DNA of 34,417 bases, from assembly GCA_900314125.1 (NCBI GenBank), contig OMUD01000227.1, positions 1 through 34,417 on the forward strand. The letters run 5' to 3'. Below are positions 9,897 through 28,592 of this stretch, in pieces (the stretch's first letter is position 1; each line of letters begins with the position of its first letter). The notes beneath the pieces are model-generated. The model worked only from the letters and a program-made list of their open reading frames with translations. It had not been told where the DNA came from and made no database searches. This DNA is from an uncultured Prevotellaceae bacterium (lineage in GTDB: Bacteria; Bacteroidota; Bacteroidia; Bacteroidales; Bacteroidaceae). A program made the translations under genes and the position numbers.

Positions 9897-9940
9897 AAAA
9901 AATTTATACCCATGGGCAACTTCATTGCACATGGGTATAA
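9897..9940 (-). terminator. Second of two tandem terminators
   Basis: A strong hairpin (outer 11 bp TTATACCCATG with CATGGGTATAA, a 1x1 internal loop, then 4 bp GCAA/TTGC around a 5-base loop) is followed on the minus strand by six Ts. It lies just after another terminator at 9939-9963, and no gene lies between them. Confidence 0.6.
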
Positions 9941-10000
9941 AAAAAGGGGAAACGCCTTTCCCCAATCTTGTTAACCTTAAATCTAATACTATGAAAAACA
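9938..10000 (-). ncRNA. Candidate short RNA between recJ and the FMN-binding gene
   Basis: A good promoter (10006-10035) is followed within about 60 bases by an intrinsic terminator (GGGGAAA, 4-base loop, TTTCCCC, then seven Ts; 9939-9963) and a second one. No start codon with a usable frame lies between, so the product should be a short RNA of roughly 60 bases or, with read-through, a leader reaching recJ. I recall similar promoter-proximal sequence recurring between genes in Bacteroidales genomes, but cannot check that here. The ends are estimates. Confidence 0.5.
9939..9963 (-). terminator. First tandem terminator
   Basis: A 7 bp GGGGAAA/TTTCCCC stem with loop GGCG on the minus strand is followed by seven Ts. 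It lies only about 40 bases downstream of a predicted transcription start. Confidence 0.65.
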
Positions 10001-10005
10001 CGTTG

Positions 10006-25504: not shown

Positions 25505-26812
25505 TCAGTGATGATTATCCAGCAGATTTGATGTGTAAAGCGAGAAGATGCCATCGGTGAACGCACGACGCTCATATTCACAGAACGTGCCGCTCGTCAT
25601 GATGTTGCGGCATTCATGGTAGGCACGCGCACGGCATGCCCCACCGCACACATAGCGGAGAAAGCAGTCGCGGCATCCCTCTATGTTGTCCACCACCATC
25701 GCCGCACATTGCTCCACGACAGATGATGCCGACACGATCTCACAGATGTTTTTCTCATGCACATTGCCCATCAGGAACTCTGGGTAGTGCAACAGCTGGC
25801 AAGGATACACATCGCCAGTGGCTGAGATGCTGATTTCCGAACCTCCTACGGCACATTTACAGCGGCGACGTTGCTGTGAGGCATCAAGGGTGGCCTCGCA
25901 ATAGCCCAGTGGATTCACCCCAGTGGCATTTTTTAGTGCCTCATAATATTCAACTCCGCTTATCGAGATGTCTGTTCCATGTTTGGCGTTTCCGGCAGGG
26001 AAGAGAGGCTGGAAATTCATCCTGTCGCCATATTTGTGGGCCATGGATTCCACATCGCCGATGTTCAGTCTGTTCACTGTCATTGATAGGCGGTAAGGTA
26101 CTCGGTGGCTTTCCAAGAGCCGAATTGCATGTTCTGTGCGCTCATGGCTACCATGGCCTCTGAAAGCGTCGTGGAGGGCGGCTGTGCTGCCGTCGAGGCT
26201 GATCGACACCTTGTCGAACGCAGCTTCCACTTCTTCTATATTCTTTTCGGTGATGAGTGTGCCGTTGGTGAGCACGTCCACAGATGCCCCCTTCCTGCGG
26301 ATATAGCGCGCAAGGTTGAACACATCAGGGTTCAGCAGGGGCTCGCCTCCTGTGAGCGTGAATTCCACGTTGCAGCTCATCTCCTGGATGCCGTCCACAA
26401 GGCGTCGGTAGTCGTCCATCTGCAGTTGGGGATAAACGCTCTCTTTCCGGTCTGTGGCATAGCAATAGCGGCAGTTCAGGTTGCACTGGTCAGAGATGGA
26501 GAGTTGTACGCTCGTGAGTTCCTGATATTCTTGCTTCACAGGAACCTCTCCGGGGAGAGGCTCTTCAAACAAATGGCTGGCAATAGCTTCGTTGAAGAAC
26601 CGTCGGGCTTGTGCTGCCGCCTTCTCTCCTGCCGTGTCGCTCAGAGCGGCAACAATGTCGGTCACTGAGGCCTTTCCGTCGCACATCGACAGCAGCAAGG
26701 CACCGTTGGAGTTCGTCACCAGCCATGACGGAACGTCCGGATTGAAAAAGAGAATCTTTCCTTCTTTCTCAATCCGTTTGACATGGGAGGGTAGTTTCAG
26801 TGTGATTGGCAT
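25505..26812 (-). CDS. Radical SAM/SPASM peptide-modifying enzyme with PqqD-like N-terminus
   Basis: A 435-residue enzyme. Residues about 1-90 resemble a PqqD-type RiPP recognition element (LKLPSHVKRIEKEGKILFFNPD). The radical SAM core follows, with the cluster motif C110-x3-C114-x2-C117 and GGEP at 155-158. The C-terminus is a SPASM domain: CKCAVGG, then YPC, then C-x2-C-x5-C-x3-C (GCRDCFLRYVCGGAC) and a further Cys, normally holding two auxiliary 4Fe-4S clusters. This architecture is that of sactipeptide/ranthipeptide-type maturases. The gene lies 20 bases after the repeat-cysteine precursor, with GAGGA before its ATG. The start at 26812 is chosen because upstream sequence overlaps the precursor. 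The reaction catalysed is not known. Confidence 0.88.
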   Translation of the reverse strand: MPITLKLPSHVKRIEKEGKILFFNPDVPSWLVTNSNGALLLSMCDGKASVTDIVAALSDTAGEKAAAQARRFFNEAIASHLFEEPLPGEVPVKQEYQELTSVQLSISDQCNLNCRYCYATDRKESVYPQLQMDDYRRLVDGIQEMSCNVEFTLTGGEPLLNPDVFNLARYIRRKGASVDVLTNGTLITEKNIEEVEAAFDKVSISLDGSTAALHDAFRGHGSHERTEHAIRLLESHRVPYRLSMTVNRLNIGDVESMAHKYGDRMNFQPLFPAGNAKHGTDISISGVEYYEALKNATGVNPLGYCEATLDASQQRRRCKCAVGGSEISISATGDVYPCQLLHYPEFLMGNVHEKNICEIVSASSVVEQCAAMVVDNIEGCRDCFLRYVCGGACRARAYHECRNIMTSGTFCEYERRAFTDGIFSLYTSNLLDNHH

Positions 26813-26832
26813 TTCCTCAATTTTGTAGTGAA

Positions 26833-27498
26833 TCAGGTTCCGGCGCAAGTGTAGCTCGAGCCACATTTGCCACCTCCGCCTCCACATTCGTACGATGAAC
26901 TGCATTTGCCCTGACCACGGCTGCCCTGACCTGCGCAGCTGTAGCTTGAACCGCATTTGCCGCCACCACCCGAGCATTCGTACGATGAGCCACATTTCCC
27001 TTGGCCTAAGCTGCCTTGTCCCGAGCAGCTATAGCTGGAGCCACATTTGCCACCTCCGCCCGAACACTCGTATGATGAGCCGCATTTGCCTTGACCTTGG
27101 CTGCCCTGACCTGCGCAGCTGTAGCTTGAACCACATCTGCCACCGCCACCCGAGCATTCATACGATGAGCCGCAGGCACCGCTGCCACTGCGCTGGCTGC
27201 CCTGGCCTGAGCAACTGTAGCTTGAACCACATTTGCCGCCACCGCCTGAGCATTCGTATGACGAACCACATTTGCCCTGGCCGCCAATGCCCTGACCTGC
27301 GCAGCTGTAGCTTGAGCCGCAATTGCCGCCACCGCCTGCGCATTCGTAAGATGAGCTGCACACGCCGCCGCCAATCCCCATGGCCTGGGCTATGTTTAAT
27401 TTGCTACCGAGAAACAGACCGGCGCCTGCCACGAATGAACCTTGCAGCAGCTCACGCAAAAAGTCGCGTCTTGAATGTTTTTCATTATCGTTCTCCAT
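26833..27498 (-). CDS. Repeat-cysteine RiPP precursor with Tat-like leader
   Basis: A 221-residue protein. Residues 1-46 form a leader with a twin-arginine pattern (S9-R-R-D-F-L-R15) and a hydrophobic stretch to about residue 40. Residues 47-221 contain twelve copies of C-[GS]-S-S-Y-[EST]-C, 24 cysteines in all. The copies alternate strictly: YEC copies are followed by a GGGG spacer, YSC/YTC copies by a GQG..GQGK-type spacer, giving six two-part repeats of about 30 residues. The only other residues are mostly Gly, Ser, Gln and Lys. The adjacent radical SAM/SPASM gene makes it very likely the substrate for thioether or other crosslinks. I know no named family that matches it. A metal-binding or structural protein is the alternative. 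Confidence 0.8.
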   Translation of the reverse strand: MENDNEKHSRRDFLRELLQGSFVAGAGLFLGSKLNIAQAMGIGGGVCSSSYECAGGGGNCGSSYSCAGQGIGGQGKCGSSYECSGGGGKCGSSYSCSGQGSQRSGSGACGSSYECSGGGGRCGSSYSCAGQGSQGQGKCGSSYECSGGGGKCGSSYSCSGQGSLGQGKCGSSYECSGGGGKCGSSYSCAGQGSRGQGKCSSSYECGGGGGKCGSSYTCAGT

Positions 27499-27583
27499 AA
27501 GTCTTTATTTTATATGAAAAATGTGTTTTCTTCAGTAGAGGAAAGGTTTTATGTGTAGGTTTTCCTAAGTTGTGTGCGCAGGC

Positions 27584-28033
27584 TCATTTGAGAATCTGAC
27601 TCGCATGAACCTTCGTCTTGATTTCTTTCGGACCGATAATCCGCTCCACGATGCCATCCTCGTTGATGATGAACGTGGTGCGGTGAATGCCCATATAGGT
27701 GCGTCCCGCCATTTTCTTCTCACCCCACACACCGAAAGTATCCATCAGTGTGTGGCTGGAGTCGCTGATGAGCGGAAATGGCAATTCGTTTTTTGCAGCA
27801 AATCGTTGGTGCGACGCTTGGCTGTCGGCACTCACACCTACCACCTCATAGCCTGCTTTACGAAGCTCTGAGTAGTTGTCGCGCAGACTGCATGCCTCAC
27901 TCGTGCAACCAGGGGTGGAGTCCTTAGGATAGAAATACAACACCAGCTTGCGCCCTTTGTAGTCGCTCAGCTTGATTTCATTCCCTTCTGCATCGATGCC
28001 CAGTATCTCGGGGGCTTTCATTCCTATTTCCAT
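27584..28033 (-). CDS. bcp: Thioredoxin-dependent thiol peroxidase (Bcp-type peroxiredoxin)
   Basis: A 149-residue peroxiredoxin that reduces hydrogen peroxide and organic peroxides in the cytoplasm using thioredoxin. It has the peroxidatic cysteine in DSTPGCTSEAC (C43) and the resolving cysteine five residues later (C48), the Bcp/PrxQ arrangement. The length is standard. Its start overlaps the msrA stop by 10 bases, so the two are translationally coupled. A second in-frame ATG four codons in (MKAPEI) is an alternative start. The repeat-cysteine precursor follows 85 bases downstream on the same strand. Confidence 0.92.
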   Translation of the reverse strand: MEIGMKAPEILGIDAEGNEIKLSDYKGRKLVLYFYPKDSTPGCTSEACSLRDNYSELRKAGYEVVGVSADSQASHQRFAAKNELPFPLISDSSHTLMDTFGVWGEKKMAGRTYMGIHRTTFIINEDGIVERIIGPKEIKTKVHASQILK

Positions 28034-28560
28034 GGTGTTTGGTTTTGGGGTTTATTGCATTTGGCTTTTCTGGCAAATTCAAAGAGTGAGAGTGGGAGAT
28101 GGCAATATCCGTCGGGATTCTTGTCGAGGTAGTCCTGATGATAATCTTCTGCACGGAAGAAATTCTTCAGAGGCTCCACTTCCACCACGAATGTCTGGCC
28201 GGCTTCAAGTTCTTTGGCTTTATAAACATGCTGTATCGTCTCCAGATCTTCGGGAGATGTGTAGTAGATTCCAGTGCGGTAGCGTGTTCCTTCATCTTCC
28301 CCCTGACGGTTCAGGCTCAATGGGTCGATGGCGTGGAAGAACATATCAATCAGAAACTCCAAATCCACAACATCACCGTCATATACCACGCGGACGGTCT
28401 CTGCATAGCCTGTCTGGTCGGTATAAACATCCTTATAGGTGGGAGACGGGGTGTCGCCATTGGCAAACCCCACCTCTGTCTGCCTCACACCTTCAATCTG
28501 CTTGAAGAAATGCTCAGTGCCCCAGAAGCAGCCGCCCGCAAAATAAATCTCTCGTTCCAT
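28024..28560 (-). CDS. msrA: Peptide methionine sulfoxide reductase MsrA
   Basis: A 178-residue enzyme that reduces the S-epimer of methionine sulfoxide in oxidised proteins. The catalytic Cys11 lies in the family motif AGGCFWG, followed by E16; further conserved pieces are SPTYKDVYTDQTGYAE and the C-terminal HQDYLDKNP. No fused MsrB domain is present. The start at 28560 (MEREIYF) is chosen because a -7 box at 28585-28592 lies over the next upstream ATG. It forms an oxidative-stress pair with bcp, overlapping by 10 bases. Confidence 0.93.
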   Translation of the reverse strand: MEREIYFAGGCFWGTEHFFKQIEGVRQTEVGFANGDTPSPTYKDVYTDQTGYAETVRVVYDGDVVDLEFLIDMFFHAIDPLSLNRQGEDEGTRYRTGIYYTSPEDLETIQHVYKAKELEAGQTFVVEVEPLKNFFRAEDYHQDYLDKNPDGYCHLPLSLFEFARKAKCNKPQNQTPWK

Positions 28561-28584
28561 AGTGCTATACTTTACAATATGATG

Positions 28585-28592
28585 CAAATATA
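28585..28592 (-). promoter_or_regulatory. Possible -7 box of msrA-bcp
   Basis: The minus strand reads TATATTTG 25 bases before the msrA ATG. The -33 element is weak. Whether transcription continues into the RiPP cassette cannot be told; no clear terminator lies between bcp and the precursor gene. Confidence 0.4.

Follow-up and report, generated by a model that had tools for sequence, protein, structure and literature searches.

A candidate two-gene cassette for a crosslinked cysteine-repeat protein with a Tat-type leader in rumen Bacteroidales and green sulfur bacteria

In the 34,417-nucleotide stretch of DNA from an uncultured Prevotellaceae bacterium that was analysed here (contig OMUD01000227.1; the whole stretch is called the window), a gene for a 24-cysteine repeat protein is followed by a gene for a radical SAM (rSAM)/SPASM enzyme. 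We consider it probable that the two genes form one cassette whose product is a multiply crosslinked, secreted repeat protein; the links would be thioethers, probably of the sactionine type, and export would use the Tat pathway. A more far-reaching form of this proposal, which we put forward only tentatively, is that nearly every Cys ends in a backbone C-alpha thioether, which would amount to as many as 24 links in the window protein and 38 in a relative, that the product is a stapled repeat protein instead of a small peptide and is exported folded by Tat, and that an rSAM RiPP class with a Tat exit is common to rumen Bacteroidales and the phototrophic green sulfur bacteria.

The precursor and the enzyme in the window

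The features of the cassette are as follows.

26833..27498, minus strand: precursor gene, 221 aa, whose 24 Cys form twelve Cx5C units; relatives at 12 other loci
27382..27498, minus strand: predicted Tat signal/leader, residues 1-39, ending AQA before M40, the putative cleavage site being placed by the AxA rule
27454..27474, minus strand: twin-arginine motif SRRDFLR, residues 9-15, with S-R-R-[DEK]-F-[LF]-[KR] in 13/13 precursors
26845..27360, minus strand: core of Cys repeats, residues 47-218, with six copies of an approximately 30-residue repeat of the form Cx5C-xGGGGx-Cx5C-xGQGxxGxGK
26836..26844, minus strand: C-terminal tail AGT, exactly three residues past the last Cys, a length shared by 13/13 precursors
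25505..26812, minus strand: rSAM/SPASM maturase, 435 aa, assigned from NCBIfam, Pfam and an AlphaFold2 model matching CteB at full length
26576..26803, minus strand: N-terminal PqqD-like/RRE region, about residues 4-79, assigned from a sub-threshold PqqD match, the relatives and the model
26462..26485, minus strand: CxxxCxxC [4Fe-4S]/SAM motif, C110-C117, invariant in 12 enzymes
25580..25855, minus strand: SPASM domain, C320-C411, PF13186, with the seven conserved Cys of the SPASM pattern

An earlier sequence-only reading of this DNA had described a precursor of twelve units, 24 Cys and six repeats with YEC/YSC-type alternation behind a Tat-like leader, and re-reading of the ORF and its translation bore out every detail. 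Counted in the translation, the units are CSSSYEC (two), CGSSYEC (four), CGSSYSC (five) and CGSSYTC (one), with E alternating with S or T along the six repeats; the Cys spacing is 5-6-5-10, once 12, and Tandem Repeats Finder reports a 90-bp period over the precursor at 26843-27360. The pairing of Cys is far above chance, as 20,000 shuffles of the mature part gave a mean of 1.5 Cx5C and a maximum of 8 against the 12 observed. When the repeats are compared among themselves, dS is 1.39 and dN 0.053; the residues are kept while synonymous sites are strongly diverged between repeats, and a recent DNA-repeat expansion was rejected on this ground. The precursor has zero matches among Pfam and NCBIfam models, in agreement with the earlier placement of it outside any named family. 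Antisense ORFs run over the gene, such as one of 201 aa at 26895-27500 on the plus strand with similar ORFs at other loci; they are best explained by codon composition and were rejected as genes.

The enzyme starts at MPITLKL (26812), 20 nt past the precursor stop; a longer mechanical ORF reaching 26995 is not needed and would overlap the precursor. Its cluster motif is C110-x3-C114-x2-C117 and its SPASM pattern C320-x12-G-x4-C338 ... C380-x2-C383-x5-C389-x3-C393 ... C411, and all ten of these Cys (C110, C114 and C117; C320, C338, C380, C383, C389, C393 and C411) are invariant in the 12 enzymes compared. In Pfam, Radical_SAM (PF04055) matches above threshold with 81.4 bits and SPASM (PF13186) with 30.7 bits versus a cut-off of 21.5, while PqqD reaches 21.7 bits, just under its cut-off of 23.4, and is matched at E<=0.01 by 9/12 of the relatives' enzymes. 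AlphaFold2 models the N-terminal region as strands then helices (pLDDT about 66-86) within an enzyme model of mean pLDDT 71 and poor SPASM part, which aligns with CteB over residues 8-429 (Z 19.3, 369 residues, rmsd 5.7) and also matches the anSME, SuiB, ChlB and SkfB structures. The cluster motif, the seven-Cys SPASM pattern and the RRE/PqqD-like N-terminus thus mark the protein, as predicted from sequence, as an rSAM/SPASM peptide maturase. The PqqD-like domain, CxxxCxxC, full SPASM domain and 20-base gap noted by the earlier reading were all recovered, with PqqD itself sub-threshold in the window enzyme.

Regarding the family of the enzyme, the top NCBIfam model is the sactipeptide maturase StsB (NF045574), which gives the best E-value of any model overall and matches all 12 enzymes, but with 183.7 bits versus a cut-off of 625 the window enzyme is not a member. 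The ACGX enzyme model TIGR04340 also matches all 12 (best 8.9e-27), below StsB. Generic SPASM families score 100-142 bits on the window enzyme, the PapB model NF047865 92.1 bits versus a cut-off of 340, and the SCIFF maturase model TIGR03974 85.2 bits versus 425. With generic models at 100-142 bits and StsB far under its cut-off, sequence alone does not fix the chemistry. No MNIO enzyme appears among the 25 best NCBIfam models or the Pfam matches, the partner being rSAM/SPASM.

Distribution, gene pairing and conservation

The gene pair was found at 13 loci, always as precursor then enzyme, 12 of them with a full enzyme and one (L023) on a contig that retains just the enzyme's first residues. 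Searches with enzyme and precursor located the cassette in two congeneric genomes, in another genus of the family and at seven further loci of rumen/omasum Prevotellaceae/Bacteroidales metagenome-assembled genomes. The phylum sample contributed two genomes of another class, both carrying FMO protein; this protein is, we take it, diagnostic of green sulfur bacteria, and the two carriers are hence treated as Chlorobia. The sequence-only reading had suggested searching for the motif beside rSAM/SPASM genes in other Bacteroidales, and it is indeed found there; the placement in Bacteroidales holds for the rumen Prevotellaceae/Bacteroidales but was too narrow in scope, since the FMO-positive Chlorobia also carry the cassette. 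Four close pairs (G004/G012, L016/L021, L018/L019 and the two Chlorobia) bring the number of independent lineages down to about nine. Few genomes carry the cassette, 3/13 in the genus, 4/399 in the family and 2/98 in the Chlorobia class, and neighbour genes are unrelated between independent loci; this patchy distribution and the unrelated neighbours suggest a mobile or frequently lost accessory unit.

The strongest evidence that the two genes are one system is their co-occurrence: when both profiles search one sample of 395 genomes from the phylum, the same three genomes, G000, G950 and G994, are picked out by the precursor and, at E<=1e-128, by the enzyme. The earlier claim of a two-gene RiPP-like cassette is upheld by this co-occurrence, by the fixed pair at 13 loci and by an enzyme of RRE-rSAM-SPASM build, and the conserved, co-occurring precursor-enzyme gene pair that serves as a criterion for a RiPP is present. 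The same observations bear on the reading of the precursor as nothing more than a secreted structural protein rich in Cys and Gly, with the adjoining rSAM enzyme acting on another substrate. The Gly-rich low-complexity composition would suit such a protein, as would the AlphaFold2 model of the precursor, which consists of low-confidence strands only (pLDDT 52) and is too poor to use; but precursor and enzyme co-occur, and across the 13 loci, which span two bacterial classes and have unrelated genes nearby, the pair alone is conserved, which makes this reading highly improbable.

An all-against-all ORF comparison around the loci revealed no third conserved gene, except for a Sel1-like-repeat gene (recognised by eye) in the two Chlorobia, which shares the strand of the precursor and precedes it by 26 nt (L029 3176-3835 and L030 6286-6729, both minus) and whose product is a possible third member of the cassette in Chlorobia. 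At two related loci only, a signal-bearing ORF, prolyl-dipeptidyl-peptidase-like by eye, starts about 25 nt after the enzyme (L018 7327-8841 and L019 7327-9423, plus strand). In the window, genes for a prxQ/bcp-type thiol peroxidase and msrA overlap each other at 27584-28587 (minus strand), 85 nt upstream of the precursor and on its strand; a transcript shared between the cassette and these redox-repair genes is possible, and the arrangement is not conserved at other loci. The window also holds an Rfam match to the Bacteroidetes FopS small RNA family (9936-10001, minus strand, 77.3 bits).

Several candidates were set aside in these searches. The f145 enzymes (G824, G1042; E ~1e-67), weaker matches of the enzyme profile, were rejected as distant members, being without a Cys-repeat precursor and adjoined by an apparent ABC transporter and apparent regulators of the sigma-54 type. 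At L031 6782-8332 and L032 6708-8297 (both minus), a long rSAM/SPASM protein distinct from the maturase of the cassette, with a PqqD-like N-terminus, is encoded beside an apparent ABC transporter and apparent sigma-54-type regulators and has no Cys-repeat precursor; this is another uncharacterised cassette. A viral or plasmid origin was also rejected: a tblastn search of phages and plasmids with the enzyme retrieved nothing closer than distant rSAM proteins, and viral contigs scanned for the unit pattern gave single chance matches only.

The 13 precursors, of 105-341 aa and 8-38 Cys, hold 145 units, and all 290 Cys stand in Cx5C pairs. Within the units, position 2 is G/S, position 3 S/T/I/A, position 4 S/A/G, position 5 Y/F/I/S/A and position 6 S/E/D/N/G/T/A; the second Cys is followed by A/S/T/G, then by Gly in 145/145 units, then mostly by G or Q, and each of the 13 precursors ends exactly three residues past its last Cys. 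The invariant features are thus the Cys, the Gly at +2 of the second Cys and the three-residue tail. The precursor core is under strong purifying selection and its amino-acid pattern is actively kept: dN/dS of the orthologous core is about 0.03 in G004/G012 and L018/L019, with few replacements, and 0.15 in the very close L016/L021. In the longest precursor (L011 6042-7064, minus strand; 341 aa, 38 Cys), a charged linker of 29 residues separates Ile-type units from the Phe-type units that follow, as if two precursors had been fused. The smallest, in the Chlorobia genome G994, has 105 aa with four identical CGIGAGC units and AGGGGQ spacers only; if the chemistry is shared, this makes Tyr, Glu, Ser and the two-spacer alternation all non-essential. 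Two earlier suggestions are not supported by these data. Tyr or Glu beside Cys had been named as possible acceptors, whereas relatives vary at positions 5 and 6 and possess CGIGAGC units; the alternation had been taken to suggest two crosslink types, whereas this Chlorobia precursor has a single kind of unit and a single spacer.

The Tat-type leader and the candidate ring chemistry

In the window, SRRDFLR is followed by a hydrophobic stretch and by AQA-M at residues 37-40, and all 13 leaders have a twin-arginine motif of the S/T-R-R-x-F-L-K kind and a hydrophobic stretch, with an AxA-like site in most. Unmodified, the mature window protein would have a monoisotopic mass of about 16655.4 Da. 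The Tat-like leader proposed earlier is therefore kept in every precursor, and the genome check that went with it returned a TatC gene in the window's own genome and in 12/12 other carrier genomes tested. With a base rate in the family of 101/121 genomes (83%), TatC in every carrier is weak evidence for Tat export. The Tat pathway transports folded proteins. Neither a transporter nor a peptidase is encoded in the cassette, which Tat and signal peptidase I doing the work would account for; a dedicated peptidase near residues 40-46, as once supposed, is not required in our best model, the AxA site being suitable for a signal peptidase I-like cut.

Our model would run as follows. The PqqD-like RRE of the enzyme would recognise the precursor in the cytoplasm, probably by its leader, and the enzyme would work along the core, linking Cys sulfurs to nearby backbone carbons. 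The links would most likely be Cys-S-to-C-alpha (sactionine) and would close small rings that are not nested; the favoured register, i to i+3, would join the first Cys to S/A/G at position 4 and the second Cys to residue 10. The housekeeping Tat pathway would then export the folded, matured protein, whose leader would be cut off at AxA by signal peptidase I. At i+3 the candidate acceptors of the first Cys are confined to S/A/G, those of the second are G/Q/N/S/E/D/T/K, and in CGIGAGC units Gly, Ala and Ile are the only possible acceptors. The constant three-residue tail makes i+3 available to the last Cys and excludes i+4 toward the C terminus. A precedent is streptosactin, the product of GggB, with two un-nested sactionine rings, Cys25-Ser28 and Cys31-Gly34 (PMC8172795). 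Rings of i to i+2 are reported for QmpB (PMC13361665), and the invariant Gly at +2 would suit such rings equally well.

C-alpha thioethers are favoured over two other chemistries for the same exported cassette. One would form C-beta or C-gamma thioethers of the ranthipeptide type, for example from Cys to residue 3 or 5. These positions are never Gly and bear a C-beta in all 145 units, CteB, the top full-length fold match, is a SCIFF maturase, and the CX3D links of PapB have the same spacing as the first Cys to residue 5 (PMC9413430). PapB acceptors are Asp/Glu, however, and the residue types here are too varied: at +4 of the first Cys stands Y/F/I/S/A, never D/E, and a PapB-type CX3D/E motif is absent. 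Moreover, the PapB and SCIFF models give 92 and 85 bits versus 184 for StsB, and the second Cys of the last unit lacks a residue at +4, all of which leaves ranthipeptide-type links unlikely. The other chemistry would be something apart from thioethers, such as epimerisation, a C-C link or oxidation, with the Cys pairs staying thiols or disulfides, for example to bind metal in the manner of bufferins. The chemistry of rSAM/SPASM enzymes is diverse, the window cassette lies behind prxQ and msrA, and paired Cys in an exported protein recall the MNIO-made bufferins with their signal peptides (PMC12452194); but invariance is confined to Cys and Gly, which leaves no further conserved acceptor residue, conservation of the neighbourhood does not extend to prxQ/msrA, and no metal gene is recognised nearby. 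We regard this chemistry as improbable too.

Comparison with known systems and significance

Among known systems, streptosactin/GggB is like the present one in its RRE-rSAM-SPASM enzyme, StsB (probably the same family as GggB, judging from the names) ranking first among NCBIfam models for the window enzyme, and in its Cys-dependent un-nested rings, whose Ser/Gly acceptors at i+3 would suit positions 4 and 10. It differs in that streptosactin is a 14-mer with two rings from Gram-positive streptococci, whereas here a repeat protein of 105-341 aa has a Tat leader. CteB of the SCIFF system shares its fold over the full enzyme length including the N-terminal domain, and PapA of the PapB system has multiple in-line Cys motifs; both systems are set apart by the model scores of 85-92 bits and by cassette precursors without a fixed Asp/Glu/Thr acceptor. 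The ACGX and CXXX-repeat rSAM systems and GrrA/GrrM also have repeat precursors modified by rSAM/SPASM enzymes, but no NCBIfam precursor model matches here, and repeat and leader differ. Bufferins are likewise Cys-rich RiPP precursors of Gram-negatives that use secretion signal peptides as leaders and the general export machinery, but with an MNIO and DUF2063 partner and Sec, in contrast to rSAM and Tat here. RiPP precursors with lipoprotein-type secretion signals are also known (PMC12636315).

We therefore call the precursor family new and its length, presumed link number and export route unusual; the rSAM/SPASM RiPP-like type of enzyme is already known. The PMC papers searched, outside which most subscription papers lie, contain no report joining Tat or 'twin-arginine' with SPASM or rSAM RiPP precursors. 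A survey of RiPPs that carry signal peptides states that few bacterial RiPP precursors have one of the Sec type and that Sec-dependent export in the native producer had been demonstrated for bufferins alone; it adds that export ahead of modification has to be prevented in some way (PMC12452194). A Tat leader would naturally answer the latter question by exporting the protein folded. Candidate biological roles are periplasmic metal or thiol functions, a structural one and an antagonistic one.

Known sactipeptides generally have 1 to 4 links (PMC8326336). If the thioether model is true, the product of this cassette would have far more links than they do, and a ring-forming chemistry would be combined with an export route for folded proteins. 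The cassette is compact with its two genes, and the Chlorobia version, with 105 aa and four identical units, offers a simple substrate for reading the chemistry.
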